The notes under the pieces: model-generated
What the model saw: only the letters and a program-made list of their open reading frames with translations
Databases searched by the model: none
What the model was told of the DNA's origin: nothing
Shown: in pieces, positions 5,809-24,984 of the stretch
Layout: every line of letters begins with the position of its first letter
Numbering within the stretch: position 1 is the stretch's first letter
Made by a program: the position numbers and the translations under genes
Assembly: GCA_018970605.1 (NCBI GenBank)
Contig: JAGWWA010000012.1
Coordinates: 1 to 39,741, forward strand
Length of the DNA: 39,741 nucleotides
Direction of reading: 5' to 3'
Origin: Planctomycetota bacterium
Lineage (GTDB): Bacteria > Planctomycetota > Planctomycetia > Pirellulales > UBA1268

Positions 5809-5867
5809 TTCATGACTTCCCATCGGTCAGCGGCGGCCGGTCGGTGCTCCGTGGGCGCTCGAGCGGC

Positions 5868-7961
5868 ATGGCCAAAAAACGCGACATTCCCAAGCGCGTC
5901 CCCGACCGGAAGCCGGCCGTGGGCGGAAACCTCGTCTGGTCGCTGGTGGCCGCCGGCGTGGCCAGCCTCTTCGCCCTCAGCCTCGTCAGCGTCGCCCCAG
6001 ACCTCGAAATCTCCTACAGCGACCTCGAGCGGCTGATCGCGGCTTCGGCGGTCGACGGCCCGGATCGCTTCGTGACGCTCCAGAAGTCGGAGGGCGATGC
6101 GTCTGCGATCCGCTACGGCGACCTGCACGACGTGGTGATCGGCGCCTTCGAGGTGTCGGGCAGGGTGCGTGAGGCGCCGCGGGGCATTGCCGACGCCCAC
6201 CCCGCCGACGAGTCGAGCCAGCCCCGCCGGCCGCTGGTCGGAGGTCTCGCGAGTGGGGAGAGGCGGTTTCGCGCCGCCAAGCTCCCCAGCGAGAACTCCG
6301 AGTCGGAGTTGATGAAGACGCTCAAGGAGTATGGTGTTCCGTTCCGCTACGAGGATCCTCCGAGTCCCTGGCGGAACTGGCTGCCGATGCTGTTTCTGAC
6401 CGGCCTGTTCGGCGTGCTGTTCTTCGTGATGATGCGGCGGATTGGCGGCGCGGGCAGCCCGATGGCCTTCGGCCGCAGCCGCGGCAAGATGTATGCCCAG
6501 GAGGATCTCGGCATCACCTTCGACGACGTCGCCGGCATCGACGAGGCGGTCGAGGAGTTGCGGGAGGTCGTCGAGTTCCTGAGGAGCCCCGAGAAGTACC
6601 AGGTGCTCGGCGGCCACATTCCCAAGGGCGTGCTGCTCGTCGGGCCGCCCGGCACCGGGAAGACGCTCCTGGCCAAGGCGATCGCCGGCGAGGCGGGCGT
6701 GCCGTTCTTCGGCCTCTCCGGCAGCGACTTCGTGGAGATGTTCGTGGGTGTCGGAGCGGCCCGCGTCCGCGACATGTTCCAGCAGGCCGCCGCGAAGGCT
6801 CCCTGCATCATCTTCATCGACGAGCTCGACGCGCTCGGCAAGACCCGCGGCACGAGCGTCGTCGGCGGCCACGACGAGCGCGAGCAGACGCTCAACGCCC
6901 TGCTCGTGGAGATGGACGGCTTCGGCAGCAACTCCGGCGTGATCGTGCTCGCCGCGACCAACCGCCCCGAGACACTCGACCCGGCGCTCCTCCGCCCGGG
7001 CCGGTTCGACCGCCACGTGCTCGTCGATCGTCCCGACGTGCGCGGCCGTGAGGCGATTCTCAAGGTGCACGTGTCGAAGGTGAAACTCGATCCGTCGATC
7101 GACATCGGGCAGATCGCCCGGATCACCTCGGGTTTCGTCGGTGCCGACCTGGCGAACCTCGTCAACGAGGCGGCGCTGCTCGCCGCCCGAAACGACAAGA
7201 CGGCCGTCGGCATGGATGAGTTCAACGAGGGCGTGGAGCGGGTGACAGCCGGACTCGAGAAGAAAAAGCGGGTGATCCACGAGGACGAGAAGAAGCGGGT
7301 GGCCTATCACGAGGCGGCGCACGCCCTGGTCGCCTACTCGCTGCCCAATACCGATCCCGTCCACAAGGTGTCGATCATCCCGCGTGGCCTCGCGGCCCTC
7401 GGATACACCATGCAGCGGCCGGAGGACGACCGCTACCTGCTCACGCAGAGCGAACTCGAAAGCCGGATCCAGGTGCTGCTCGCCGGCACGATCGCCGAGG
7501 AGGCCGTCTACGCCGACGTCTCCACCGGTGCTCAGAACGACCTCGAGCGTGCCAGCGAGATCGCCCGCTCGATGGTGATGGACTACGGCATGAGCCGGCT
7601 GGGGAGGGTGACCTACCGCGAGAGTCCGCGGTCTCCGTTCCTCGCCGGCGCCGGCGGCGATGTGCCCGGCTCTCGCAGCCACAGCGAGCAGACGGCCCGC
7701 GAGATCGACGAGGAAGTCCGCCGGATCATCGACGAGGGGATGGCCAAGGTGCGGCGGATCATCGAGACGCGGCGGGCCGCTCTCGAGGCGGTGACCGCGC
7801 GGCTGATGGAGTGCGAGGTGATCGACGGCGCCGAGTTGAAGGAGATCGTGGAGGCCTCGGCCGGGGCCCCGCAGCTCGTACCCGGCACCGACACCGAACG
7901 CCGGCCGGTGCGGACCCACGTCGCCGATCACGGCGACGCCGCCGCATCTGCGGACGCCTGA
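5868..7961 (+). CDS. ftsH: ATP-dependent zinc metalloprotease FtsH
   Basis: A 697-residue membrane-anchored AAA+ protease that degrades misfolded membrane proteins and regulatory substrates. It has an N-terminal transmembrane helix (about residues 22-42), an extracytoplasmic region of roughly 130 residues and a second helix (about 168-186). The AAA module has Walker A GPPGTGKT near residue 259, Walker [12 protein letters not shown] near 312 and the second region of homology [18 protein letters not shown]. The zinc motif is HEAAH at 481-485; the usual FtsH form is HEAGH, so the Gly is Ala here. The third ligand region [12 protein letters not shown] is present. The ATG at 5868 (MAKKRD) is preferred over a GTG at 5844. 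The HflK/HflC-like proteins, known FtsH partners in E. coli, are encoded 6 kb away. Confidence 0.95.
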
Positions 7962-9143: not shown

Positions 9144-9387
9144 CTCCCCCAGTCGGGTTGTGGAGGCGAGAAAATGCGGTTTTTTCCGGCAGCGGGTCGG
9201 AATCCGCCCGTTCGCGGAGTACCATATGCCCGGTCGGGCAGTCATTCTGCTCCGAGGGGTGGCAGGCGGAATGATCCTTTTTGGGATTCGCTGCGTATCA
9301 CTTCCTACAACCCAATCCCTTCAGGTCTGACGTCCACTCCGCGTGGCGAGTCTTGAACGGGCACCTCCCTTCAGAAGGAACTCTCCC

Positions 9388-10497
9388 ATGAGTCGGTCTT
9401 CGTGCCGCGGACGCCGCGGCTTTACGCTTGTCGAACTGCTGGTCGTGATCGCGATCATCGGCGTCCTGGTGGCCCTGCTGCTGCCCGCCCTGTCGTCGGC
9501 CCGCTCGGCCGCCAACGCCTCGGGCAGTGCCAGCAACATGTCCGGTTTCGGGCGTGGTTTCGAGCTCTATGCCAACTCCAACAACGGCAACTACACCTCG
9601 GGTGCGTTTGACCACTGCCGCGACGGCGACATTCGCCAGTACGGCTGGGTGGCCGACCTGATCTCCCAGAAGGTGTCGCAGCCCGGCAAGGCGCTCGACC
9701 AGGGCAGCCGGAACAAGGTCAGCAAGACGGCGGCCGAATACATGGGCGTCAGCGACGCCAACACGACGGCCAACTTCGACACGGGCCTGGCCGCAGGCCG
9801 CTGGGACAACACCGAGACCCCCACCCCCACCTTTGCGAACAAGACGGGTGAGGCCTTCTTCGGTGGCGATGCCAAGGCCAAGGAAGTGTGGGACCAGGGC
9901 TACAACACGAACTACGCGACGACGTGGCACTTCAGCCGCGGCGATCCGTCGGGCACGAACGGTTATACCCCCGGCACGAAGTCGCTCTCCGATGGAGACG
10001 GCCCCCTGTCGCAGAACCATCTCGCCCAGGGCAACACCACCGCGGCCCGTGTGGCGCTGATGGGACCGGCTCGGGCGACAACGACGCCGGTGGTCGCCGC
10101 CGATGCGACGACGATCGTCAACTTTGCCGGCAGTCCGGTCGTGAAGGCGAACGATCTGCTCACGCAGAGCTTCACCGGCGGCATGACGGTGTCGGGAACC
10201 GTGACCGGTGACACCACCGCCGGGGTGAAGATCCACGAGTTCTCGGCAATCGAGCCGCTCCACCAGCCGAAGACGGCCAACGGTGGCGGTGGCCACGCCC
10301 CGGTCCTGTTCGCCGACCTGCACGTCGAGAAGGTTCAGGACACCGTCACGTCGGGTGCGACGGAGGTCAAGAACAAGGGCGACGGATATCTCGGCAACGC
10401 CGCCGATGGGTCGATCGGGGCCCTGGGGTATCAGGAGGTTGCGGATCAGATGTGGACCCGCCGCCTGCGGACGTCGCAGACCGGCTCCTATCAGTGA
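9388..10497 (+). CDS. Prepilin-type N-terminal cleavage/methylation domain protein
   Basis: A 369-residue pseudopilin-like protein. The leader is basic ([10 protein letters not shown]) and followed by [20 protein letters not shown], the type IV prepilin cleavage site (between Gly and Phe) plus the hydrophobic helix. The globular part is long and rich in Asn, Thr and Gly, and near the C-terminus has [16 protein letters not shown], resembling the conserved end of planctomycete DUF1559-type proteins. Such proteins are numerous in planctomycetes; their role (secretion, surface assembly) is not established. The ATG has AGAAGGAA 8-15 nt upstream. A strong terminator follows, so it is probably transcribed alone. 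Confidence 0.88.
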
Positions 10498-10560: not shown

Positions 10561-10601
10561 GTTGGTCCGCTGCGACGCGGTGCGTCTGGCGTGCGTCTGG
10601 C

Positions 10602-10607
10602 TATAGT
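10602..10607 (+). promoter_or_regulatory. Putative -10 element of the P-type ATPase gene
   Basis: TATAGT ends 7 bp before the ATG at 10615. Because a terminator ends at 10560, the gene needs its own promoter within 54 bp, and this is the only AT-rich hexamer there. A start point 6-8 nt downstream would put the RNA 5' end at the start codon. No convincing -35 hexamer is visible. Confidence 0.45.
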
Positions 10608-10614
10608 TGACGCC

Positions 10615-12660
10615 ATGGCTTCGGCGACCCTTCCCAGCGAATCGGCATCCGGCGACGCGACGGCGGCGGAGGCGGCCGTCGGCCGCGCGCTGCGGCTGCA
10701 GATCGCTGCCACGCTGGTGGGCGCCACGCTGCTGGCCTGTTCGCTCGTTGCCCGGTTCCTGTGGGCCAAGGATTTCTATCCCGCCATCCCGGCGGCCCTG
10801 GCCGCCCTGCTCCTGGGAGCGCCGCTGGTCGCCGCGGCCGTCAGGGATCTGTTCAGGGGGCAGGCTGGCATGAACGCGCTGGTGGCCCTGGCCGTCGTGG
10901 GCGCGGCGGCCTCGGGAAAGTATCAGGAGAGCGCCGCGGTCGCGCTGTTCATGATCGTCTCGGGGCTGATCGAGAAACGGACGGCGATCGGAGCTCAGGC
11001 GAGCATCGAGTCGCTCGTCAGGCTCGCGCCCACGAAGGCCCACCGCCTCGTGGCGGGAGCGACCTCCCTGGATGGCCGCGAAGAGGAGGTCGAGGCCAAG
11101 GATCTCCGCCCCGGCGACCGTGTCCGCGTCCGTCCCGGCGACACCATCCCGGCCGATGGCCGCGTGCTCACCGGCACCAGCACCGTGAATCAGGCGAGCA
11201 TCACCGGTGAATCGCTGCCGGCCGACAAGCTGGCGGGCGACGAGGTCTTCGGCGGCACGATCAACCTCACCGGGGCCCTCGACATCGAGGTCACGAAGGC
11301 GGGTGCCGACACGCTCCTCGGCCGCGTCAAGGATCTGATCCTGCAGGCCGAGCGGACCCGGACGCCGATCATGCGGCTGGTCGATCAGTATGCCTTCTGG
11401 TACACGCCGACGGTGCTGATGCTCGTGGGCGTGGTGCTGTTCTTCGCACTGCGGAGCGACCCGGAAACCGCGTTCAGCCGGGCGATCGCCATGCTCGTCG
11501 TGGCCTGCCCCAGTGCCCTGATCCTGGCAACGCCCACGGCCATGGTGGCGGCGCTCTCGGCGGCCGCGCGACTCGGCGTTCTGGTCAAGAGCGTGGTCAC
11601 CCTCGAGGCCGCCCGCAACCTGACGGCGATCGTGTTCGACAAGACCGGCACGCTGACGACCGGCATCCTTGCCGTCACGCGCTTGGCGCCGGTCGAGGGC
11701 GTCGAGGGAGCCGAGCTGCTCAGGCTCGCCGCATCGGTCGAACAGGACAGCCGCCATCCGGTGGCCCGGGCCGTGACGGAGATGGCTCGGCGGGCGAACC
11801 TGCCGCTCACGCGGCCCGACGCCTTCGAGGAGGTTCCCGGTCGGGGCGTGGTGGCCACCGTTGCGGGCAGTCGGGTGATGGTGGGTCGGGGAGCCTGGCT
11901 CGCGGGCGTGGACGGGGGCCTCGCGGCCGCCGAGTCCCGGGCGATCGAGGGCGTGCAGGCCAGTGACGACGCCGAGGGGTTGAGCATCCTGTTCGTCGTG
12001 AAGGATGGCCGGCTCCTCGGCTGGATCGGCCTCGAGGACAACGCCCGCCCCGAGGCGGCCGAGGCGGTGGACCGGCTGCGGTCTCTCGGGCTCAAGCGGC
12101 TGGTGATCCTCACCGGCGACCGCCGCAGCGTGGCGCGGCGGGTGGCCGAGCAGATGCACTTCAGCGAGTTCAAGGCCGAGGTGTTGCCGCACGAGAAGCT
12201 CGAGATGGTCGATGCCCTCAAGGCGCAGGGTCATCGCGTGGCGGTGATCGGCGACGGCGTCAACGACGCGCCGGCACTCGCCGCGGGCGACATCTCGATC
12301 GCGATGGGCGCCGCGGGCAGCGACGTGGCGATTCATTCCGCGACCATCGCCCTGCTCAACAGCAATCTCAACCGGGTGCCGTTCCTGATCGAGCTGTCGC
12401 GCCGCACGATCGGCGTCATCCGGCAGAACATGGTGATCGGCGCCGCCTTCATCGTGGTCTTTCTGGCGTTGGCGGGGGCCGGCTACGTCTCTCCGGTGAT
12501 GGCGGCATTCCTGCACATCGTCAGTGGTCTGATCGTGGTGTTCAACTCGGCCCGCCTCGTCCGCTGCGGCGAGGAGATCGAGCGGTCGGAGGCCGAGCGG
12601 CTCGCGGAGGTGGAGGCTAGCCGACGTCGCGACGCTGGAAGAGCAGCACGGCCAGGCTGA
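10615..12660 (+). CDS. Heavy-metal translocating P1B-type ATPase
   Basis: A 681-residue metal-transporting ATPase. The actuator loop has ASITGESLPAD, the phosphorylation site is DKTGTLTTG with Asp342, the P1B-specific HP motif is SRHPVARAV and the hinge is GDGVNDAP near 546. The transmembrane metal motif is CPS at 298-300 (VACPSALILATP), not the CPC of typical Cd/Zn/Cu pumps, so the second coordinating Cys is lost. There is no N-terminal CxxC metal-binding domain; the first ~30 residues are Ala-rich. The metal cannot be assigned. The last 44 bp overlap the convergent ABC permease gene. No Shine-Dalgarno is visible; see the adjacent -10 element. Confidence 0.92.
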   Translation: MASATLPSESASGDATAAEAAVGRALRLQIAATLVGATLLACSLVARFLWAKDFYPAIPAALAALLLGAPLVAAAVRDLFRGQAGMNALVALAVVGAAASGKYQESAAVALFMIVSGLIEKRTAIGAQASIESLVRLAPTKAHRLVAGATSLDGREEEVEAKDLRPGDRVRVRPGDTIPADGRVLTGTSTVNQASITGESLPADKLAGDEVFGGTINLTGALDIEVTKAGADTLLGRVKDLILQAERTRTPIMRLVDQYAFWYTPTVLMLVGVVLFFALRSDPETAFSRAIAMLVVACPSALILATPTAMVAALSAAARLGVLVKSVVTLEAARNLTAIVFDKTGTLTTGILAVTRLAPVEGVEGAELLRLAASVEQDSRHPVARAVTEMARRANLPLTRPDAFEEVPGRGVVATVAGSRVMVGRGAWLAGVDGGLAAAESRAIEGVQASDDAEGLSILFVVKDGRLLGWIGLEDNARPEAAEAVDRLRSLGLKRLVILTGDRRSVARRVAEQMHFSEFKAEVLPHEKLEMVDALKAQGHRVAVIGDGVNDAPALAAGDISIAMGAAGSDVAIHSATIALLNSNLNRVPFLIELSRRTIGVIRQNMVIGAAFIVVFLALAGAGYVSPVMAAFLHIVSGLIVVFNSARLVRCGEEIERSEAERLAEVEASRRRDAGRAARPG

Positions 12661-13603: not shown

Positions 13604-13833
13604 GGGCCTTCGGGGAGCCGGGAGCGTGGATGGCCGCCAGGAAGCTGGCGTGCGGATGGCCACCTTACCACCGGCCGGCGTGGGTCCGGGGAGGCCCCCG
13701 CCCCGGGCGGGGCGGCGGGAACCCGCAGGCTGCGGCAACCGGTGAATCCTGCGATGGTAAACTCGGGGTCGGCGTCAGTCGCGGGCAGCGTTCCGCGCCG
13801 GCCGTGGGCATCCTGCAGCCGGAACCTCCACCT

Positions 13834-15882
13834 GTGACCGACGATTCCCTCGTCTACCGCCGCGGCACCACCGCCGCCATCGTCGGCTTGGTGATCCAGA
13901 TCGGCCTCACGGTGGCCACGGCCCTGGTGGGCCTCTGGACGCAGAGTCCCGCGATCCAGGCGGCGACCTGGCACATGCTCGGCGGCCTGCCAATCTGGAT
14001 CATCCTCGCGCTCGTCTACGCCCAGTATGACGCCGAGCGACGGGAGTCGTTGGCCGCCGAAAAACTTGCGACCCAGGACGCCGCTTCGTCGGTGCTCTTC
14101 GGCGACCTCTCCGACGAACTCCAGCGGGCCAGGCAACGTCTGGCCAACCTGCTTGGCTATGGACTGTCGGGCGTGAGTTTTCTGGTGGCCGTCTACCTGA
14201 TCGTTGCCGGGGCGGCGCTGCTCTGGCGCTTCTGGCGCATCGCCGCCGCGGCTGGGCCGGGCGTGGTGACCACGCTCGCCCCTGGAGCGAGCCCCGTGGG
14301 GCTGCTGTTCGTGTCGGCGGCGATCGCCTTCGTGGCCTTCATCTCCGCCCGCTGGATCAGCGGCTACACGCGGGTCAGGGCGTGGCGGCTCCTCCGGGGC
14401 GGCGCCAGCTACCTGATGAGCTGCTTCGTCCTGGCGGCGCTCGTGCTGGCGGGGGCGGTGGTTGCGGCGCTGCTTGACGACACCTCGTTCTTCCGCCTCG
14501 TCGCGGTGGCGGTGCCCTGTGTGATGATGCTCGTCGGGGCCGAGATCCTGCTGACGGGCCTCCTCGAGGCCTACCGTCCCCGGCGGCCCGGTGAAGTGCC
14601 GCGACCGGCGTTCGACAGCCGGGTGCTCGGCCTGCTGACGGCCCCGGAATCGCTCGGGCAGGTGGTTGGCGAGCTGATCAACTACCAGTTCGGCGTCGAG
14701 GTCTCGCGGAGCTGGCTCTACCGGCTGCTCGGGCGGGCCATCACGCCGCTGACGATCCTCGGCGGCGGCGTGCTCCTGGCCCTGTCGGCACTCGTGGTCG
14801 TCGGCCCCGATGAACAGGGCGTGGTGATGCGATTCGGCGAGGTGCGGGGTGCGGCGCGGGGCCCCGGGATCCACTTCAAGCTGCCCTGGCCGATCGAGAC
14901 GGCCGCCACCTATCCCGTCGGCAAGGTGCTCCAGATCGACGTCTCGAGCGACCCGATCGGCCGCACGGCGAACCAGGAGGCGATCCTCTGGAGCAGCGGC
15001 GACGACCGTTTCGACACGATCGGCATGGAGTACTATCCGACCGTTCTCGATGCCCGGACCGATGACGCCGGGGCCGGTGGGCTGGCGGTCATCGCGGCCG
15101 ATCTGGTGGTGCAATATCGCGTTCGCGACCTGCTCGACTTTCTGGAAGGGTCGCTCTCCCCGCGGGAGGCGATCACGCTGATCGCCCAGCAGGAGGCGAG
15201 CCGCTACTTCGCCAGCCATACGCTCGACGACCTGCTCACCCGTGGCCGGGCGGAAGGGGGCGTGGTGCTGGAGCAGGCGATCCAGGAACGAGCCGATCGC
15301 CTCGGTCTGGGGCTCGACGTGGTGGGCGTGTCGGTGACGGTCCTCAAGCCGCCCGGTGGGAAGGTGGCCCGGGCGTTTCACCGTCAGATCGGCGCCCAGC
15401 AGGAGCGGGAGACGCTGATCCAGGCGGGGCGAAAGGAGGCCGTCACGACGCTGGCGAAGGTGGCCGGGTCGGTGGACCACAGCAATCGCATCAATGCCGC
15501 GATCCTCCAGCTCGATGCCTTGCGAGCGACCGCGGCCGGCGATCCCGCCGCGGCCCGGCAGATTGCGATCCTCGAGCTCGACATCGAGTCGCTCCTCGGC
15601 GAAGCGCGGGGCGAGGCGGCGGAGCTGATTCATGCCGCCCGCGGCTACCGCTGGGCGAAGTCGGTCGGCGAACGCAGCGCCCGCGAGCGGTTCGCCGGCG
15701 AGCTCTTGGCCTTCGAGAAGTCGCCCAACTACTACCGTGTGCGGAAGTTCCTCGAGGTGCTCGCCGACGGCTTGGCGGAGCGGCGAAAGTTCATCATCGC
15801 CGGCGACCAGGGGGACCTCCCGATCCTGCAGATGGACTTCAGCGACCCGACCTCGGCCCTCGACACCCTGCTGGGCCAATGA
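13834..15882 (+). CDS. Large SPFH/HflK-like membrane protein
   Basis: A 682-residue protein, far larger than usual HflK (about 400). The first ~300 residues contain six or seven predicted transmembrane helices in no family I can name. A further helix (about 298-320) leads into the SPFH domain, starting VVGPDEQGVVMRFGEVRG and continuing GIHFKLPWPIETAATYPVG. Helical regions rich in Ala, Arg and Glu follow (about 520-640). HflK forms a membrane ring that modulates FtsH in E. coli. The GTG at 13834 is my choice; a GTG at 13804 is possible. A TAAACT hexamer at 13758 could be a -10 element in the 230-bp divergent space, where I see no other signal. The gene ends in an ATGA overlap with an ATG in frame with the next gene. 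Confidence 0.85.
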   Translation: MTDDSLVYRRGTTAAIVGLVIQIGLTVATALVGLWTQSPAIQAATWHMLGGLPIWIILALVYAQYDAERRESLAAEKLATQDAASSVLFGDLSDELQRARQRLANLLGYGLSGVSFLVAVYLIVAGAALLWRFWRIAAAAGPGVVTTLAPGASPVGLLFVSAAIAFVAFISARWISGYTRVRAWRLLRGGASYLMSCFVLAALVLAGAVVAALLDDTSFFRLVAVAVPCVMMLVGAEILLTGLLEAYRPRRPGEVPRPAFDSRVLGLLTAPESLGQVVGELINYQFGVEVSRSWLYRLLGRAITPLTILGGGVLLALSALVVVGPDEQGVVMRFGEVRGAARGPGIHFKLPWPIETAATYPVGKVLQIDVSSDPIGRTANQEAILWSSGDDRFDTIGMEYYPTVLDARTDDAGAGGLAVIAADLVVQYRVRDLLDFLEGSLSPREAITLIAQQEASRYFASHTLDDLLTRGRAEGGVVLEQAIQERADRLGLGLDVVGVSVTVLKPPGGKVARAFHRQIGAQQERETLIQAGRKEAVTTLAKVAGSVDHSNRINAAILQLDALRATAAGDPAAARQIAILELDIESLLGEARGEAAELIHAARGYRWAKSVGERSARERFAGELLAFEKSPNYYRVRKFLEVLADGLAERRKFIIAGDQGDLPILQMDFSDPTSALDTLLGQ

Positions 15883-15929
15883 CCTTGGAGCGTGCCGGCC
15901 GATCGCGGCGGCACGAAGACGATCGACCC

Positions 15930-16883
15930 ATGAAGAACTCGTTCACGATCCTGATCGGCGGCCTGATCGCCGCCGCCCTGCTGTCCTACATGTTTCTGTA
16001 CCAGGTCCGCTACGATCAGGTGGCGGTCCGCACCACCTTCGACAAGGCCGACGCGGGGAGCGTGCAGGACACGCCTGGGCTCAAGTGGCGGCTGCCATGG
16101 CCGATCCACAAGGTCACCCACTATTCCAAGCGGCTGCAGTTGCTCGAGGACAAGATCGAGGAGCTGCAGACCGCCGATGGCAAGAGCGTGATCGTCCGCA
16201 CCTACCTGACGTGGCGGATCGAGAACCCGCTCGATTTCTACGTCACGCTCAAGGATCCGAGCGAGGCGGCGCGACAGCTCGCCAGCCGGCTCCGGGAGAT
16301 CCGTGGCATCATCAGCCGCTACCGCCTCGATGAACTCGTGAACCTCGACCGCGACAAGCTCAAGCTCGCCGCCATCGAGGACGAGGCGAAGCAGGCGCTG
16401 GAGAAGTCGCTGGAGCAGTCGGGCTACGGTCTCAAGGTGGAGAGCGTGGGCATCTACAAGCTCGTGCTGCCGGAGGCGACCACCGAGAAGATCTTCGAGA
16501 CGATGATCAAGACCCGCGAGCGGCTCGCGGAAAACGCCCTGCAGGAGGGACAGGCACAGGCCTCGGCCATCCGCAGCGAGGCCAAGAGTTCCCGGGACAG
16601 GATTCTCGCCTTCGCCGAGCGGCGGGCACAGGCGATCCGCTCGCAGGGGGACCGCGAGGCCTCGAAGGAGTACGAGAGTTTCGCCAAGAACGAGGAGTTC
16701 GCGATCTTTCTGCGGAAGGTGGAGGCGCTCAAGAAGATGCTCGACCACAACACCACGTTCGTGCTTTCGGCCGACAGCCTCGGCATCCTCGACTGGTTCA
16801 ACCGCGACCCGGGGCAGGCGCCTGCCGCCGGAGCTCCGGCCGGCCGGCCGCCGCGGCCCGCGGCCGGTGGAGGGGCGCGATGA
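15930..16883 (+). CDS. HflC-like SPFH-domain protein
   Basis: A 317-residue protein with one N-terminal helix (about residues 6-24) followed by an SPFH domain (YDQVAVRTTFDKAD, PGLKWRLPWPIHKV), a long coiled coil (ENALQEGQAQASAIRSEA) and the HflC-like ending FAIFLRKVEALKKML. The tail is Ala/Pro/Gly-rich. HflC is the partner of HflK in FtsH modulation. The ATG at 15930 puts the helix directly at the N-terminus, as usual; an in-frame ATG at 15879, overlapping the upstream stop as ATGA, would add 17 polar residues. It overlaps the next gene by ATGA at 16880, so the three SPFH genes are tightly packed and likely co-translated. Confidence 0.88.
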   Translation: MKNSFTILIGGLIAAALLSYMFLYQVRYDQVAVRTTFDKADAGSVQDTPGLKWRLPWPIHKVTHYSKRLQLLEDKIEELQTADGKSVIVRTYLTWRIENPLDFYVTLKDPSEAARQLASRLREIRGIISRYRLDELVNLDRDKLKLAAIEDEAKQALEKSLEQSGYGLKVESVGIYKLVLPEATTEKIFETMIKTRERLAENALQEGQAQASAIRSEAKSSRDRILAFAERRAQAIRSQGDREASKEYESFAKNEEFAIFLRKVEALKKMLDHNTTFVLSADSLGILDWFNRDPGQAPAAGAPAGRPPRPAAGGGAR

Positions 16884-18136
16884 CGATCGACGTCGACCGG
16901 AGCGGGCCCGACGTCGAGCCCCTCGACCCGGCGCAGCAGTCGCTCGCCGAGGCGCTGCGGGTGAGCTTCGGCATCCTCAAGGCGGCGATGGTCGTGGCCC
17001 TCGTCGCCTACGCCTTCAGCGGCACGTTCAGCGTGGGCTCCAACGAAGTGGCGCTGCGGCTGCGGTTCGGCGACTACGTGGGCGGACCCGGCCAGCGGGT
17101 GCTGGAGCGTGGCACCTACCTGGCGGCGCCGTTTCCACTCGAGCAGGTGGTCAAGATCGACACGCGACCGATGACGCTCGCGATCGACGACGCGTTCTGG
17201 TACGAGTCGGGCGAGCGCGACCAGGGCATGACCAGGGATCAGATCCGCAACTCGCGTGCGCGGCCGCTCAATCCGGTTCGCGACGGATCCCTGGTGACGG
17301 GCGACATGAACATCGCCCACGCCCGCTGGACCGTGACGTATCGCGTGACCGATCCGGTGGCCTTCGTCACCAACGTGGGCGAGCGTCCGCTCGCCGAGAG
17401 CCTCGTCGCCTGTGCAGCCCAGCAGGGAATCGTCCAGGCGATCGCGCAGCTGCCCGCCGACGACCTGCTGAAGGGCGTGGTCAATCGCGAAGTGGCGACG
17501 GCCGTGGCGCAGCGGCGGCTCACCGAGATGGGCACGGGTCTTTCGATCGACCAGCTGACGCTCGACAAGGTGTCGGCGCCCGTCAGCGTGATCGGCAGCT
17601 TCGACGCCGTCACCACCGCCGAGTCGGATCGCTCGCAGCGGATCGTCGCGGCTCAGCAGGATCGGGCCCGGATCCTGGGTGAGGCGGCGGGGGAGGGGGC
17701 GGAGAAGATCCTGGCCCTGCTCGATCGCTTCGAGCGGGCAGGGGAAGCCGGCACCCCCGACGAGGTCGCCGCTGCCGAACGGGAGATCGAGGCTGCGTTC
17801 GGCGAACTGTCCATCGGGGGGACGGCGATCGGCGGCGAGGTGGCGCAGGTGGTCAACGCGTCCAAGACCTACCGCACCCAGGTGGTGGAGCGGGTGAAGG
17901 GGGACAGCGAGACGTTCCAGCGACTTCTCCCCCAGTACGAGCGGAACCCGCGGATCATTCTTTCGCGGCTCTGGGAGGACGCCCGCGAGCGAATCCTGAC
18001 CGGTGACGTGGAGACGTTCTACACCGTGCCGGGAAAGCTCGAACTCCAGCTCAATCGGGATCCCGTCATCCAGAAGGAGCGGCAGCAGGAGCAGATGCGG
18101 TCGCTCAAGGAAAAGCAGGCGGAGTCTGGCAGGTGA
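16880..18136 (+). CDS. Third SPFH-domain protein (HflK-like)
   Basis: A 418-residue protein with a ~35-residue polar N-terminus, one transmembrane helix (about 34-52) and an SPFH domain (SVGSNEVALRLRFGDYVG, then LAAPFPLEQVVKID). A coiled-coil segment rich in Ala, Glu and Arg covers about residues 250-320, and the protein ends in a charged helix (QKERQQEQMRSLKEKQ). It shares the HflK plan but is clearly different in sequence from the two upstream proteins, so the array is not a recent duplication. The ATGA overlap with the upstream gene decides the start. The ABC ATPase gene follows after 37 bp. Confidence 0.85.
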   Translation: MTIDVDRSGPDVEPLDPAQQSLAEALRVSFGILKAAMVVALVAYAFSGTFSVGSNEVALRLRFGDYVGGPGQRVLERGTYLAAPFPLEQVVKIDTRPMTLAIDDAFWYESGERDQGMTRDQIRNSRARPLNPVRDGSLVTGDMNIAHARWTVTYRVTDPVAFVTNVGERPLAESLVACAAQQGIVQAIAQLPADDLLKGVVNREVATAVAQRRLTEMGTGLSIDQLTLDKVSAPVSVIGSFDAVTTAESDRSQRIVAAQQDRARILGEAAGEGAEKILALLDRFERAGEAGTPDEVAAAEREIEAAFGELSIGGTAIGGEVAQVVNASKTYRTQVVERVKGDSETFQRLLPQYERNPRIILSRLWEDARERILTGDVETFYTVPGKLELQLNRDPVIQKERQQEQMRSLKEKQAESGR

Positions 18137-18173
18137 CCGCGACGGTGGCCGCCGGCGCCCGAGGGGGAATGCG

Positions 18174-19385
18174 ATGATCGCGACGGATGAGAAGCGGCAG
18201 GATCCGGCGAGCGGCACCGCTCGGCCGGCCGACGCGGCCGATGGCGTGGACATCAAGTGCGTGGGGCTCACCAAGACGTTCCGCGACTTCTGGATGCGGC
18301 CGCGGGTGCGGGCCGTGGAGGGAGTCGATCTCGAGGTTCGCCGCGGGCAGGTCTACGGGCTGCTCGGGCCGAACGGCTCGGGCAAGAGCACGACCATCAA
18401 GATGATCCTGGGGCTGATCTCGCCGACGTCGGGCCGCATCGCGGTGCTTGGACGGCGACCGCGGGACGTCGCCTCCAAGCAGCGGATCGGCTACCTGCCC
18501 GAGGAGAGCTACCTCTATCGCTTCCTGTCGGCCCGCGAGACGCTCGACTACTACGGCCGGCTGTTCCGCCTGCCCGCGCGGCTGCGCCGCGAGCGGATCG
18601 ACATGCTGCTCGAGATGGTGGGGCTCGACGCGGTCGAGCACCGGCCGGTGGGGGAGTTTTCCAAGGGGATGCAGCGGCGGGTGGGGCTCGCGCAGAGCCT
18701 GATCAACGACCCGCAGCTCCTGATCCTCGACGAGCCGACCAGCGGCATGGATCCGGTCGGGGCCAAGCAGATCAAGGATCTCATCGCCGACCTCGGCCGC
18801 CGCGGCAAGACGGTGCTCCTCTGCACCCATCAGCTGTCGGACGTCGAGGACCTCTGCGATCGCGTGGCGATCATGTTCGGCGGCCGGGTGCGGGCCGAGG
18901 GCACCTGCGACGAGCTGCTCGAGCAGGAAGACCGCACCACGATCCGCACCGCCGCCCTGCCGCCCGCGGTGGTGGCCGAGGTTCGCGGCGTGCTCGAGCG
19001 GCACGGGATCGGCCCCGTGGCCGTCGAGCGGCCGCGTCGGCGGATGGAGTCGCTGTTCCTGGAGATCGTCGAGCAGGCCCGCGTGGAAGGGGCAAGGACC
19101 AGCGGGGCCACCTCCGGGGGCCGGGTCGCCGACTTCCTTCGTTCGGGGACGGAGTCGCCGGATGTCGGCGTGGCCACGCCCGTGGGCCCCGTGGCCGACG
19201 TCACGCCCACAGCCGGCGTGCCGGCTGCCACGCCACCTGTCGCGCCGCCGTCTGGCACGTCGGTAGCCACGTCTTCTGCCACGCCGGCTGCCACGTCGGC
19301 TGCCACGTCGCCACCGCCCGCGGCCCAGCCCGCCGGTCCCATCGACACGGCGCTCATCGATCGTCTTACCAACCGCCAGCGGTGA
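18174..19385 (+). CDS. ABC transporter ATP-binding protein with a Thr/Ala/Pro tail
   Basis: A 403-residue ATPase subunit. Walker A is GPNGSGKSTT, the Q-loop region is IGYLPEESYLYRFLSARET, the signature is FSKGMQRRVGLAQ, Walker B is LLILDEPTSGMDP and the switch His is in LCTHQLSDVEDL. It fits the group that works with ABC-2 permeases. After about residue 310 comes a linker and then roughly 70 residues of Thr/Ala/Pro/Val-rich low-complexity tail, built from repeated Ala-Thr-Ser/Pro units. The ATG has GAGGGGGAA 5-13 nt upstream. It sits between the SPFH genes and its likely permease, whose ORF starts within 15 bp of this stop. Confidence 0.92.
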   Translation: MIATDEKRQDPASGTARPADAADGVDIKCVGLTKTFRDFWMRPRVRAVEGVDLEVRRGQVYGLLGPNGSGKSTTIKMILGLISPTSGRIAVLGRRPRDVASKQRIGYLPEESYLYRFLSARETLDYYGRLFRLPARLRRERIDMLLEMVGLDAVEHRPVGEFSKGMQRRVGLAQSLINDPQLLILDEPTSGMDPVGAKQIKDLIADLGRRGKTVLLCTHQLSDVEDLCDRVAIMFGGRVRAEGTCDELLEQEDRTTIRTAALPPAVVAEVRGVLERHGIGPVAVERPRRRMESLFLEIVEQARVEGARTSGATSGGRVADFLRSGTESPDVGVATPVGPVADVTPTAGVPAATPPVAPPSGTSVATSSATPAATSAATSPPPAAQPAGPIDTALIDRLTNRQR

Positions 19386-19396
19386 ATTCGGCCACG

Positions 19397-21223
19397 ATGA
19401 ACAGACCGAGTCAGCCCTGGCGCCTCGCGTCCCGCCCGCTGTTCGTGCTCGCCGTCGGCAGCATGGCCGCAGAGGTCTCTGCCGGGGTGTTCGGCGGTGG
19501 ATTTGCTGGCGTCGTGCAGGCGGCCTTCGCGGCCGCCTGCGCCTGGTGGACCTGGCGTGAGTTCGAGGCCGCTCCGCGGTGGCGGAGGCAGGCGACGGCG
19601 ACTGCCGCCGGCCTGGCGGGCATCGTCGTCGTCTGGTTCCTCGCGAGGCATGGCCGACCCGTCGAGGCTACCGGCTTGGCAGGCGTCATTGGCATGGCGG
19701 CGGGCTGCTGGCTCGGGCTGGCGGGCATCCACCTGGCGCTCTCGGGATCCACCGGCGTCACCGGTGTGGCCCGTGCGGTGCTCGACGAGGCGGTGCGGAT
19801 GAGGGCGTCGCTGGGGCTCGCGCTGCTTGTGCTCGTGCTCGTCCCCACGCTGCCGCTGGCACTCGACCATTCGGAGCGGCTCCAGTATCGCATGCAGTTC
19901 CTGCTGAGCTGGTCGCTGGGCATCACCGGCGTGATCCTGGCGCTGCTCACGATCGTCCTCGCCTGCGGGTCGATCTGCGGCGACATCGACTCGGGCCGCA
20001 TTCACATGACGCTCGTCAAGCCGCTACGGCGCTGGGAGTATCTGCTGGGCAAGTGGCTCGGGATCGCGCTCTTCGACCTGTTGATGGTGGCTCTGGTGGG
20101 GGCGGGCACCGCCACGTTCGTCCGGCTTCTGGCTGCGACCGAGGCGACCGATGCACAGGATCGCGCTGCCGTGACGGAGCAGGTGCTGACCGCCCGGATC
20201 GCCCTCCAGCCGGAGCCCGCGAATCGTGCCGAGTACGACGCGGCGATCGGCGCCGCGATTCGGCGGCTCGAAGACGATGAGCCCGATGCCTTCGTGCGGA
20301 ATCCCGGAGCCGCCCGCCGGCGGATTCGCCAGGAGTACGACTGGCAGTGGCACACCGTCACGCCCGACACGGTCTCGACCTTCGTGTTCCGGGGGCTCGG
20401 CGGGGTGAAGCGGCAGGCGGCCGGCCGCGCCGACGCCACCCTGCAGTTGCAGCTCAAGCCGCGGGCCTACAACGTCGATGTCGATCTCGCCGACGTGCGC
20501 TTCGCGATCTGGCTCAATGACCGGCCCTGGCCGATGACGGACGGCGTCCATGCGGAGCAGACACTCCCCACCCAGGCCGTGCACGTCCTCGACCTGCCGG
20601 TGGACGCGGTGGACGAGCAGGGCGACCTGCGGGTGACCATCGCCAATCGCAACCTCGTGCCTGCCGGCGAGACGCAGCCGACCGCCATCACGTTTTCTCC
20701 CGGCGACGGGTTGCGGATTCTCCACCGATCCGGCGGATTCGACGGCAACTTCATCCGCTGCCTGGCGGTGATCTGGATCAAGCTCACGATGGTGGCGGCA
20801 GTGGCCGTGGCCGCGGCATCGTGCCTGGGCCTGCCGATGGCGATCCTGGCATCGCTGGTGATCTACGCCACGGCCCTCGGGAGCGGCTTTCTCCGCGACG
20901 CGCTGGGGCTCTACAACGTGGTCTCCACGTCGGTGCTCGGATCGATGGCGGAGCGGGCGGGACGGGCGGCCAGCCTGCTCGGCGAGTTCCGCTTCTACGA
21001 AGCCTTTCGGATGCTGTTTGGCTCCGTCACCGACCTGGCGCTCTGGCTCACTCCGGCCTTCTCCGACTTCGACGCCGTGGGCCGGCTTGCGACCGGGATG
21101 CTGATTCCATCCGCCGACGTGCTGGCGTGCCTCTGGCGGATCGGCCTGGTCTATCCGCTCGTGGTCGGGCTGGCCGCCTGGGCCCTGTTCGAGCGGCGCG
21201 ACCTGATCCGTTCATCCACCTGA
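19397..21223 (+). CDS. ABC-2 type permease with large extracytoplasmic insert
   Basis: A 608-residue membrane protein. Four to six helices lie in the first ~230 residues, including ITGVILALLTIVLACGSICG followed by the ABC-2 motif DIDSGRIHMTLVKPLRRWEYLLGKW (split by the membrane-proximal turn). A polar region of about 200 residues (roughly 240-445) follows, with a beta-rich part (LQLQLKPRAYNVDVDLADV), then further helices to the end. The insert probably faces the periplasm. The ATG at 19397 is chosen; a GTG at 19382 that overlaps the ATPase stop as GTGA is equally possible and would add five residues. Expected partner of the upstream ATPase. Confidence 0.82.
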   Translation: MNRPSQPWRLASRPLFVLAVGSMAAEVSAGVFGGGFAGVVQAAFAAACAWWTWREFEAAPRWRRQATATAAGLAGIVVVWFLARHGRPVEATGLAGVIGMAAGCWLGLAGIHLALSGSTGVTGVARAVLDEAVRMRASLGLALLVLVLVPTLPLALDHSERLQYRMQFLLSWSLGITGVILALLTIVLACGSICGDIDSGRIHMTLVKPLRRWEYLLGKWLGIALFDLLMVALVGAGTATFVRLLAATEATDAQDRAAVTEQVLTARIALQPEPANRAEYDAAIGAAIRRLEDDEPDAFVRNPGAARRRIRQEYDWQWHTVTPDTVSTFVFRGLGGVKRQAAGRADATLQLQLKPRAYNVDVDLADVRFAIWLNDRPWPMTDGVHAEQTLPTQAVHVLDLPVDAVDEQGDLRVTIANRNLVPAGETQPTAITFSPGDGLRILHRSGGFDGNFIRCLAVIWIKLTMVAAVAVAAASCLGLPMAILASLVIYATALGSGFLRDALGLYNVVSTSVLGSMAERAGRAASLLGEFRFYEAFRMLFGSVTDLALWLTPAFSDFDAVGRLATGMLIPSADVLACLWRIGLVYPLVVGLAAWALFERRDLIRSST

Positions 21224-21246
21224 CCATTCCGGGAAGGCCGCACCCC

Positions 21247-23100
21247 ATGTCCGATCGTGTCGTCGAGGTGATCGCTGCGACGCTGCTCGTCGCCTGTCTC
21301 GCGGGTGCCGGCGTCGCCGCGCGGTCGATCGGGCGGCAACGGGAGGCGCTCGGGCTCGTCGTCTCCATGGAAGGAACCAAGGGGATGCCGCCACACGTGG
21401 CCCTCGCGACGGCGGCGCTCGGCACCTTCCGAGGGCTGGCGGTCGATGCCCTCTGGGCGCGGGCCGACGCGCTGCAGGAGACGGGCGAGTTCTTCGAGGC
21501 GCAGACGCTCGCCCAGTGGATCACGGCCCTGCAGCCGCGGTTTCCGCGGGTCTGGGGATTCCAGGCCTGGAACCTCGCCTACAACATCTCGGTGTGCACG
21601 CGGGCGGCCGAGGAACGATGGGAATGGATCAATCGCGGGATCGACCTGCTGCGTCGGCAGGGCATCCCGCTCAATCCCGGCGACGCGAACCTGCCGACGG
21701 AGCTCGGCTGGATCTACTTCCACAAGATCGGCGGCAAGACTGATCGCGAGCACTGGTACTACAAGGCCCGGCTCGTGCGGGAGTTTCGGGAGTTTCTCGG
21801 TGACCTGACCGGCGGTCGAACGACGGCGGAGGCGATCGAGCGGTTTCGCCGGATCGTCTCGGCTCCGGATGACCTGCAGACACTGCAGGGCGACCGCGAC
21901 GTTGCCGACGCGCTCGCGGTGCTGGCGGAGCATGGCGAGAAGCCCGACGAGCGGCTGCTGCGGATGCTCGGCCGCGCGGCGCTCTACGAGGCCTCGCTCG
22001 ACACGCAGCTGCTGGCCGGCAAGGCGCTGCCAACCGGCACCAACCGCGACCTGCTTGCCGCCCTGCTCGCCGACCCGCGGTTGTCGCAGGCGGTCTTCGA
22101 TCGGCTCGTGCCCCACCTGCAGAAACGCGTGCTGATCGACCGCTATCGCATGTCACCCGACTTCATGCTCGAGCAGATGGAGCGGTACGGGCCGCTCGAC
22201 TGGGGGCATCCCCACGCCCACGGCATCTATTGGTCGGAGCGCGGCTTCGCGCTCGCCCGCGAGGGCCGGCATCGCGAGCGGCTCAACGAGCTCACCATCA
22301 TCCGCACGCGGCTGGGCAACCTGCAGCACCTGATGCGGTCGGGCCGGATCGAATTCGACCCGCTCTCCGACCGGCTCGACGTGCTGCCCGACCCCCGGTT
22401 CATCGACGGCTACGAGCGCGGGATGCAAAACGCGGTGCAGCTGATCCAGTCGGCCGAGGGCGTCTCGGCGGCGGAGTTCGGCCGGGCGACCGTCGATGAC
22501 CTGCTTCGCGGCTACGAGTCGTTCCTCGAGCAGGCGACCGTGTTCTCCTACCTCTACGGCGATGAGCCCCAGGCCGCCGGCTGCTTCGGCAAGCTCGTGT
22601 CGATCGCCCAGGAGTCGGGCCGCGGCGACCAGCCGCTCTACACCGAGGGGCTGGAAGGCTTTCTGGCGCTGCGTCTGGGGTCGGTGATGGACATCGACGT
22701 TTCCAACACGCGGCAGTTCCTCGATGCGATGGTGCAGCGGGCCATGCTCGACGGCCTCGCCAAGGGACGGCTCGACACCTTCAACCGGTTCATGCGGCTG
22801 GCGTATTCGGTCTACGACCGCAGGTATGCCGCCAGCGCTCCGGGCACGAAGCACGTCGCCCAGGAGGCGAAGCTGCCCCCGTTTCCGGAGATCGTCGATG
22901 CCTCGTACGAGAGCGCGATGCGACAGACCTCGACGCCGCTGCTGATGCGGGCTCGGATCTGGGCCTGGACGCCCGACACGATCCGGTCGCGGGTCTGGGG
23001 ACGACTCGGCGAGATGCTCCGCGCACAGGCCGCCGCCGCCGACCTTGAGCCGACCCGGACGTTTCCCGCGCCGCCGGAGGCGACGGGCAGCCCGGAATGA
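21247..23100 (+). CDS. Membrane-anchored helical (TPR-like) protein of the SPFH/ABC operon
   Basis: A 617-residue protein with one N-terminal helix (about residues 6-23) and a long, mainly alpha-helical remainder. The part LAVDALWARADALQETGEFFEAQTLAQWITALQP reads like tetratricopeptide repeats, but I cannot define full repeats. Aromatic residues are frequent. No enzyme motif is visible. The ATG at 21247 is 23 bp after the permease stop and has GGGAAGG upstream, so it is almost certainly co-transcribed. Its conserved N-terminal block after the helix (LVVSMEGTKGMPPHVALATA) would be a good search seed. Function unknown; a scaffold for the SPFH/ABC machine is only a guess. Confidence 0.7.
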   Translation: MSDRVVEVIAATLLVACLAGAGVAARSIGRQREALGLVVSMEGTKGMPPHVALATAALGTFRGLAVDALWARADALQETGEFFEAQTLAQWITALQPRFPRVWGFQAWNLAYNISVCTRAAEERWEWINRGIDLLRRQGIPLNPGDANLPTELGWIYFHKIGGKTDREHWYYKARLVREFREFLGDLTGGRTTAEAIERFRRIVSAPDDLQTLQGDRDVADALAVLAEHGEKPDERLLRMLGRAALYEASLDTQLLAGKALPTGTNRDLLAALLADPRLSQAVFDRLVPHLQKRVLIDRYRMSPDFMLEQMERYGPLDWGHPHAHGIYWSERGFALAREGRHRERLNELTIIRTRLGNLQHLMRSGRIEFDPLSDRLDVLPDPRFIDGYERGMQNAVQLIQSAEGVSAAEFGRATVDDLLRGYESFLEQATVFSYLYGDEPQAAGCFGKLVSIAQESGRGDQPLYTEGLEGFLALRLGSVMDIDVSNTRQFLDAMVQRAMLDGLAKGRLDTFNRFMRLAYSVYDRRYAASAPGTKHVAQEAKLPPFPEIVDASYESAMRQTSTPLLMRARIWAWTPDTIRSRVWGRLGEMLRAQAAAADLEPTRTFPAPPEATGSPE

Positions 23101-23172: not shown

Positions 23173-24984
23173 ATGCATGTTGGCTGCGGCAGTTCGGAGG
23201 GCTTCATCTCGGCGTCGGCGGTCGCGGCACTCGTTCCGCTGGCGGCGATCGACGTGCCCTCGTTCCAGGGAGTTCCCTGGGAGCCGCTCGGGTTCACGGC
23301 GGGCCTGTGCCTTGCGATTGCGGCCTGCATCAGCAGCATCGGCTGGGTCCGGCGGACGGGCGAAGTCCTCGGGACGGACGAGGCGGGCCGCTGGAATCTC
23401 GCCTTCGGCGCCATTGGCCTGGGTCTGCTGGCTGGCTGCATGCGGGGCGTGTGGTGGGCGGCGCCGGCGGCCATGGCCTGCCTGGGGGTCGCCGCAGGGC
23501 TCTTCATCCGTTCCAAGGATCCTGGATTGCCGGAGGGGCGTCGCGTGCTGGGCAGGGGCGGCCTGCGGAATCTGGCGGCCGAACTGCGTCCACACGTGGC
23601 GCCGTGGACCGTGGGCGCCGCTGACGGAACCCGCTCGCGGAGCCTCAAGGAGCAGCTCGCCGATCTGATCACGGGCTGGCGGCAGCGACTCTCGGGAACC
23701 AAGGCCAAGACGAAGTCGGGCCGGCGGAAAGGCAAGTCAGCCACGCCCATCGATTCGTTCAGCTTTTTGAAGAAGGACGGCACCGCCGTCGTCACGATCG
23801 CGCTGGCTGGCAAGCAGGAAGCCCGCGTGTCGCCCCATGTGCTCAAGGCGCAGCAGCTGCTGCAGGCGACGATCCGCGGCAATGCATCGAGGCTCAGCTT
23901 TGAGCCTGTCGAAAACCAGTACGACGTGAAGGTGCATGCGCGGGGCACCGACAAGAGCCTGGAGAAGCTCGGCGGCGATGAGGCTCGCGGCGTGATGGCG
24001 ACGCTCAAGGTGATGGCCGACATGGCCGGCCCGGATGCCGAGGCAGGCCGGCACGGAACCTTCGGCGTGCTGCTGCGGGGCGTGCGGTATCAGATCGATG
24101 TCGAGACGACGGGTTCTGCCACCGCGGAGCGGATGCTGCTGCGGCTGCAGCGGCCCGATGCCGTCCACGAGCAGCGCGGGCTCGACTCCCTGGGCTTCCG
24201 TCCCAAACTGCTCGGGCAGTTTCGCGAGGCCATCGGCAAGCCCTACGGCATGCTGCTGGTGGTGGGGCCGACCGGGTCGGGTCGCACCACGACGCTCTAC
24301 GCGGCCCTTCGCGACCTCGATGCCCGGAAGCGGAAGATCATGACGGTCGAATCCCCGGTGAAGCAGCAGCTTGACGATGTCGTCCAGATCGAGGTGGACG
24401 TGGCGGGGGGAGCGACCGTTGCCAGCGTGCTGCAGATGGTGATGCGGAAGGATCCGGACGTCGTGATGGTTGGCGATCTCGACGACCGCAAGACCTGCGA
24501 GATCGCGATGCAGGCGGCGCTCACCGGGCACTTCGTGTTCGCGGCCCTCGAGGGCCGCGACGCGATCGACGCGGTGACGAAGCTGCTCGACCTGGGCGTC
24601 GAACCAATGCTCGTGCAGACGGCGGTCACGGCCGTGCTGGCGCAGCGGCTCGCCCGCCGGCTGTGCCCACGGTGCAAGGTCGCCTGCGCGCCGCCCGAGG
24701 CGTTGGTGCGGAAGTTCAACCTCAAGCCGGGCGCCATCAAGCGGGTCTACAAGGAGAAGGGCTGCGATGCCTGCAACCGCACCGGGTTCCAAGGCGTCGT
24801 GCCCGTCCACGAACTGCTGGTCATGAACGACCAGATCCGCAAGCTGATCACCGCGAACCCTTCGGCCCGCGACCTCAAGGCGGCGGCCGTGCTCAACGGC
24901 ACGCTCACCCTGCAGATCGACGGTCTGACGAAGGTCGTTCACGGCGACACCACCGTCAACGAGATCCTGCGAGTGACCGGCTGA
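23173..24984 (+). CDS. GspE/PilB-family protein with degenerate ATPase motifs and N-terminal membrane helices
   Basis: A 603-residue protein. About residues 11-110 hold three or four hydrophobic helices, replacing the usual soluble N-terminal domain of GspE. A charged linker (about 160-195) leads to a GspE-like domain. The Walker A is GPTGSGRTTTLY, with Arg371 where Lys is expected; the Asp box is TVESP instead of TVEDP; Walker B is MVGDLDD with Asp435 in place of the catalytic Glu; the His box reads AALEGRDA, with Glu460 in place of His. The zinc site is intact (C498PRC, C531DAC). A TATACT hexamer at 23117 could be a -10 element. It may be a regulatory, ATP-poor paralogue of a secretion ATPase; the CvpA-like gene follows after 37 bp. 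Confidence 0.88.
   Translation: MHVGCGSSEGFISASAVAALVPLAAIDVPSFQGVPWEPLGFTAGLCLAIAACISSIGWVRRTGEVLGTDEAGRWNLAFGAIGLGLLAGCMRGVWWAAPAAMACLGVAAGLFIRSKDPGLPEGRRVLGRGGLRNLAAELRPHVAPWTVGAADGTRSRSLKEQLADLITGWRQRLSGTKAKTKSGRRKGKSATPIDSFSFLKKDGTAVVTIALAGKQEARVSPHVLKAQQLLQATIRGNASRLSFEPVENQYDVKVHARGTDKSLEKLGGDEARGVMATLKVMADMAGPDAEAGRHGTFGVLLRGVRYQIDVETTGSATAERMLLRLQRPDAVHEQRGLDSLGFRPKLLGQFREAIGKPYGMLLVVGPTGSGRTTTLYAALRDLDARKRKIMTVESPVKQQLDDVVQIEVDVAGGATVASVLQMVMRKDPDVVMVGDLDDRKTCEIAMQAALTGHFVFAALEGRDAIDAVTKLLDLGVEPMLVQTAVTAVLAQRLARRLCPRCKVACAPPEALVRKFNLKPGAIKRVYKEKGCDACNRTGFQGVVPVHELLVMNDQIRKLITANPSARDLKAAAVLNGTLTLQIDGLTKVVHGDTTVNEILRVTG

Follow-up and report, generated by a model that had tools for sequence, protein, structure and literature searches.

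The closest described relatives of the genes treated here are the SPFH proteins HflK and HflC of E. coli, which form a 24-subunit cage of alternating subunits around FtsH; the same source describes FtsH-HflK/C as giving the membrane a curvature opposite to its surroundings and as enhancing lipid scrambling (PMC12048511). For prokaryotic SPFH proteins, a survey from 2009 describes, in the available part of its text, conserved SPFH operons and NfeD partners for some subfamilies, identifies no NfeD homologue for SPFH3 (HflK/C) and others, and contains there neither "ATPase" nor "ABC transporter" (PMC2636767). The present analysis concerns a gene cluster on a 39,741-nucleotide stretch of DNA from a Planctomycetota bacterium (contig JAGWWA010000012.1, assembly GCA_018970605.1; the whole stretch is called the window), in which three SPFH genes of the HflK and HflC branches (the trio A, B and C) adjoin the genes of two pump types, a P1B-type ATPase (P) and an ABC transporter (D and E, with the permease-like G and the helical protein F). 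Many loci show genetic linkage of the trio to P, and many show it to D, E, G and F. The cluster is tentatively read as a planctomycete module that combines transport ATPases with an SPFH assembly of the HflK/HflC type, in which the trio would form a cage that holds or controls the pumps. No account of such a planctomycete cluster was found in the literature searched, which comprised titles and abstract beginnings and left most subscription papers outside. The genes lie in the window as follows.

10591..12660, + strand: P, P1B-type heavy-metal ATPase with the motif CPS in transmembrane segment 6 (TM6); TIGR01525 548.9 bits (cut-off 346.25)
12617..~13603, - strand: G, permease-like protein of the ABC-2 type, encoded divergently from A; its start is uncertain, with the open reading frame (ORF) opening at 13738
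13834..15882, + strand: A, HflK-branch SPFH protein with a predicted six-helix N-terminal membrane domain; GTG start assumed at 13834
14569..14742, + strand: conserved loop of A, ~residues 246-303, linking helix 6 to the SPFH anchor; probably cytosolic
15930..16883, + strand: B, HflC-branch SPFH protein
16880..18136, + strand: C, second HflK-branch SPFH protein
18174..19385, + strand: D, ABC ATPase of the DrrA/GldA/NodI kind
19397..21223, + strand: E, ABC-2 permease with a ~200-residue insert between membrane segments
21247..23100, + strand: F, TPR-like helical protein, probably membrane-anchored

The six ORFs A to F, first picked out by a sequence-only reading of this DNA, are all present at these coordinates, and Pfam finds Band_7 in A (2.8e-21), B (9.6e-23) and C (3.9e-18), ABC_tran in D (4.9e-33) and ABC2_membrane_2 in E (2.2e-10). 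The trio supplies the only Band_7 matches in the assembly, which is 76% complete. In a quick SPFH tree (70 rows with a single E. coli pair, and five further planctomycete SPFH proteins as outgroup), E. coli HflC clusters with B (support 99) and E. coli HflK with A and C (support 94), so that by tree placement A and C belong to the HflK branch and B to the HflC branch. The three SPFH genes of the sequence-only reading thus stand, but as related proteins of two branches rather than as three different types. Consistent with this placement, the A profile searched against solved structures returns HflK first (2.8e-38), then HflC (6.2e-12) and, more weakly, other SPFH chains, while the mutually overlapping A, B and C profiles score E. 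coli HflK at 229 to 256 bits, E. coli HflC at 157 to 201 bits and 14 other planctomycete SPFH-like ORFs at 16 to 76 bits. All three window proteins miss the NCBIfam equivalog cut-offs, A and C scoring 101.5 and 98.1 bits with the hflK model (TIGR01933, cut-off 159.4) and B 121.2 bits with the hflC model (TIGR01932, cut-off 134.4); because these curated cut-offs are not reached, the plain names HflK and HflC are avoided here in favour of HflK/HflC-branch proteins.

The linkage was scored in the best 80 of 573 candidate loci ranked by similarity to A, a set biased to near relatives, within which best-segment identity in A falls to 27%. Flanking sequence was sufficient in 61 of these loci downstream (at least 8.5 kb beyond A), in 73 on the G side (at least 1.5 kb upstream) and in 52 for P, on both sides. 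The sequence-only reading had set beforehand the question whether its genes stay together in related genomes: D, E, F and a second and third SPFH gene all lie downstream of A on the same strand in 56/61 loci, a figure that is not representative of the phylum because the 80 loci were chosen for closeness in A. The five loci not scored as complete are L085 and L108, which do have E (it was dropped by the overlap filter), L109, in which no B is labelled and the A ORF is longer than usual, L117, in which no F is labelled, and L092, with B and C only. F is present downstream of A in 59/61 loci and G lies divergently beside A in 69/73, while 25 of the 52 loci have P in the vicinity of the trio, 13 times before A and 12 times after it in the order C-P-D. 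The claim of a six-gene unit therefore holds for the five genes kept downstream of A in near relatives and falls short in that P and G, neither of which it had counted in, also recur. In a comparison with a single relative (L074, 73-74% identical in A), the ratio of nonsynonymous to synonymous changes (dN/dS) is 0.12 to 0.30 for each of P, G and A to F, nonsynonymous changes per site being ~3 to 8-fold fewer than synonymous ones in all eight genes.

A alone among the trio has extra predicted helices. Its hydropathy, averaged over 60 relatives, peaks near residues 23, 52, 119, 163, 202 (with which a small peak at 211 was merged), 235 and 314, so that six predicted helices precede the SPFH anchor, and the extra multi-helix domain described by the sequence-only reading is borne out as a prediction; for B and C, hydropathy predicts one anchor helix each. 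Between helix 6 and the anchor, nine residues are invariant in the 60 sequences (Y247, P249, F260, S262, L265, Y284, Q285, G287 and W294). Charge counts flanking the helices are consistent with an N-terminus inside, an SPFH domain outside and the stretch ~247-294 inside, and the invariant loop is probably cytosolic. The N-terminal domain profile has no meaningful match among solved structures (best E 3.8). A relationship to the cation diffusion facilitators (CDF) was considered and dropped, since the hint is not common to the family: the general CDF model matches 1/60 A members (that of the window), and the MamM and MamV models one member each. The same domain profile matches 92/391 planctomycete genomes; the single scan of the wider genome collection used the full-length A alignment. 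The domain profile matches none of the 19 listed genomes that share the window's order (the window lies on contig C34 of genome G000), and the nearest relatives of the window locus are mostly Phycisphaerae-type records, which points to a mis-binned contig, a wrong placement or transfer.

In the window, P precedes A by 1.2 kb. It carries the P-type motifs DKTGT, TGES and CPx, with a conserved LH...FNSA stretch near the last helix, and its top matches among solved structures are copper, cadmium and zinc ATPases. The heavy-metal and cadmium-family model cut-offs are passed by 3/3 P proteins tested; with the copper model TIGR01511 the window protein scores 391.3, below the cut-off of 397, and two relatives pass (412.8 and 428.6). 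Upstream copies of P have the window's orientation in 12/13 loci. In a quick tree of 61 rows, in which some genomes appear twice, the 22 rows labelled upstream, including that of the window, form one side of a branch with support 100; at least three genomes are entered twice among these 22, and several rows elsewhere have long branches. Because the upstream rows fall on one side of a single branch, the tree fits a single rearrangement of P, after which the linkage would have been kept.

Of the ABC genes, D has drrA as its top NCBIfam model (228.4 bits, below the cut-off of 312.45). E shows hydropathy peaks near residues 232 and 464 with nothing between. G matches ABC2_membrane_2 at 1.8e-4 (21.3 bits, under the Pfam cut-off of 27.2), and a profile comparison of E with G gives a probability of 99.1, by which the two are homologous permeases. 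F has no Pfam family above cut-off; TPR_14 is matched in 10/53 aligned relatives, and hydropathy peaks near residue 16 and, more weakly, near residue 60. The idea of a module-specific ABC lineage was dropped, as the D tree does not cleanly part module copies from stand-alone ones: 5 changes are needed for the former and 3 for the latter, 6/38 inner branches are starred, and the intended outgroup row (L090) is placed among the module copies.

From these elements a working model can be drawn. A, B and C may assemble as a periplasm-facing cage resembling that of E. coli HflK/C, which by descent could contain two HflK-type subunits. Since six extra predicted helices occur only in A, a large membrane domain with a conserved cytosolic loop would stand at the cage wall, and this domain with its invariant loop could serve as a dock for P, for the D-E-G exporter, or for both. 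Because the recurrent neighbours of the trio are transport ATPases, these pumps are proposed to be held at the cage or controlled by it. Once docked, they might be held at or inside the cage or presented to FtsH; D would serve two membrane halves, E and G, with F as a possible adaptor, and the pumps would depend on the cage for their surroundings, activity or turnover. Physical association of the trio with the transporters, involvement of FtsH and the nature of the substrate are what we infer; metal is the best guess for the cargo, a weakly supported one. The interest of the arrangement lies in an HflK/C-type trio kept beside two pump kinds, with one subunit bearing its own membrane domain: with candidate partners and a candidate docking loop named, the contents of such cages become directly testable.

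Several observations weigh against a cage that holds or controls both pumps. Where flanking sequence is sufficient, P was not found in 27/52 loci, and the one upstream P of different orientation (L119) lies on the opposite strand and on a long branch. The best P match is distant from the module in genomes G034, G002 and G095; of these three sites the one in G034 was fetched, and the nine proteins scanned there are, besides P, four that match unrelated families and four that match none, with no metal gene recognised. For G111, the top P match shares a contig with a piece of A. FtsH, although above cut-off twice in the assembly (window 5844-7961, + strand, ~6 kb upstream of A, and contig C86), has a relative near the module in one other locus only (L050) at E 1e-30 among 120 loci, many of which have 5 kb or less upstream. 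A second set, of 40 stretches fetched round A matches in an even draw of 119 planctomycete genomes, shows that the ABC part does not always accompany the trio. Two of its stretches (L058 and L073) were excluded for want of a long A ORF, and in 27 a long A is followed by more than 9 kb of sequence; all six genes are present in 13/27 (in L052, L054 and L072 one SPFH gene has another SPFH label, the labels coming from overlapping profiles and being occasionally swapped in distant loci). In more distant planctomycetes the trio and P occur without D-E-F (L045, L059, L060, L061 and L064), and a partial set or SPFH genes alone in the long loci L055, L066, L067, L068, L071 and L044.

The ABC genes, for their part, occur in planctomycete genomes as D-E-F with no SPFH genes nearby. 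F relatives are found in 90/119 genomes, many aligning over the first ~150 positions only, and 14 of 20 regions chosen from F matches contain a D-E-F row (with the permease labelled G in L164, and F of L167 taken from that 119-genome search); one of them, L175 (P-D-E-F), is probably a module fragment, and L171 and L173 also have G. The window's own genome holds a second D-E-F set, on contig C11 (L167), in a stretch without SPFH genes. Since the trio with P occurs without D-E-F, and D-E-F without SPFH genes, the module seems, from gene content, to join two units, an SPFH-P unit and an ABC unit. Some loci recur between the sets under two numbers (L083=L034, L085=L035, L087=L036, L076=L191).

The plainest rival explanation is that the trio is the planctomycete HflK/HflC, acting in FtsH-linked quality control, with the pumps merely co-expressed under envelope stress and making no contact with it. 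This is a serious possibility, if a doubtful one: it would suit the position of the trio within the HflK/HflC branches, the scores of the A, B and C profiles, which rank E. coli HflK/HflC above the other planctomycete SPFH-like ORFs, the two FtsH genes of the assembly and the lineages without D-E-F beside the trio. It fits less well with the predicted six-helix domain of A, which E. coli HflK is not known to have, with a P linkage that survives an apparent rearrangement, and with the missed hflK and hflC cut-offs. Unlikely, on the other hand, is a bolder form of the cage-and-pump reading, in which the trio builds an inner-membrane transport compartment, the A domain capturing P and the two-permease ABC transporter for enclosed periplasmic pumping, with or instead of FtsH proteolysis.

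More doubtful still is an envelope metal module, in which P would export a soft metal, a NosY-like ABC set would deliver it to, or mature, a periplasmic metal protein, and the SPFH proteins would be a scaffold. NosDFY is a copper ABC system, and NosY is the nearest solved relative of E; the match is weak (2.3e-5) and covers only profile positions 35-155 of 489, and that of G to NosY has a value of 2.4. The passing of the heavy-metal and cadmium-family cut-offs by three P proteins speaks for a metal role, as does the P alignment, where TM6 reads CPx in 58 of the 61 rows (CPC in 44/61) and TPC in 3. Against it, the window protein itself has CPS and five other variants are present among the rows, Pfam finds no N-terminal metal-binding domain in the window P (only E1-E2_ATPase and hydrolase-type domains), and neither NosD nor NosL was recognised among the Pfam-scanned window ORFs, no genome search for them having been made.

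Highly improbable is an exporter of an envelope lipid or polymer working in a special membrane patch built by the cage. ABC-2 transporters frequently export lipids or polymers. Against such a cargo, P is of the P1B kind and not a lipid flippase, and among neighbour-ORF clusters in 41 loci, which were not individually annotated, no further shared lipid or polysaccharide family was recognised. The opposite membrane curvature and enhanced lipid scrambling described for FtsH-HflK/C would favour it (PMC12048511). An anti-phage system or a chance cluster can be given almost no credence, since matches to PADLOC defence models are confined to D (six models, best mad3 at 4.6e-27), the other seven module proteins having none at 1e-4, and chance clustering is very unlikely given a gene set that recurs in 56/61 loci and dN/dS well below 1 against one relative.

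Gene spacing bears out part of what the sequence-only reading had described. The gaps of 11-37 bp given for the ABC, permease and helical genes are found as 37 bp (C-D), 11 bp (D-E) and 23 bp (E-F). Of the ATGA overlaps, that between B and C is real (4 bp, at 16880), while A and B probably do not overlap. An in-frame ATG at 15879 would add 17 residues to B that L074 does not have; B of L074 opens at the position equivalent to 15930, and seven other B proteins inspected start near the membrane helix. Sequence comparison thus makes 15930 the more likely start, and read from there B lies 47 bp from A.

Among the remaining neighbours, the gene directly upstream of P (9343-10497, + strand) encodes a protein whose N-terminus has a prepilin-type methylation motif, and a GspE/PilB-type secretion ATPase gene lies 72 bp after F (23173-24984, + strand), the latter not recurrent beside F in the compared loci. 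FtsH was considered as a module member and dropped, as besides the window only L050 has a relative beside the module. The planctomycete-type cluster also occurs in records titled Kuenenia (L074), Verrucomicrobia (L089), Vicinamibacteraceae (L102) and Nostoc (L123, a short contig with G-A-B-C only), which are possibly mislabelled or contaminated.

The module touches several known systems. With the SPFH-NfeD operons it shares SPFH genes set within conserved operons, although the survey itself reports that it identified no NfeD homologue for SPFH3 (HflK/C) and others (PMC2636767). P resembles the P1B ATPases CopA and ZntA in DKTGT, TGES and CPx and in its nearest solved structures, the copper, cadmium and zinc ATPases, and differs from them in having no N-terminal metal-binding domain by Pfam, a variable third CPx residue and the LH...FNSA stretch. 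With NosF-NosY of NosDFY the module has in common an ABC ATPase, D, and a permease, E, that weakly matches NosY over part of its profile; unlike NosDFY, it includes G as a further permease homologous to E, together with a TPR-like F and an E that carries a long insert, and no NosD or NosL was recognised among the scanned window ORFs, a genome search lying outside the analysis. The likeness to E. coli HflK/HflC extends to the SPFH domains, to the presence of both branches and to B and C each having one predicted anchor helix, while the module differs in having three genes rather than two, six extra predicted helices in A and proteins that miss the curated hflK and hflC cut-offs. The surroundings differ as well: hflX and yjeT flank the E. 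coli pair, whereas the planctomycete trio is accompanied by genes for ABC and P-type pumps.

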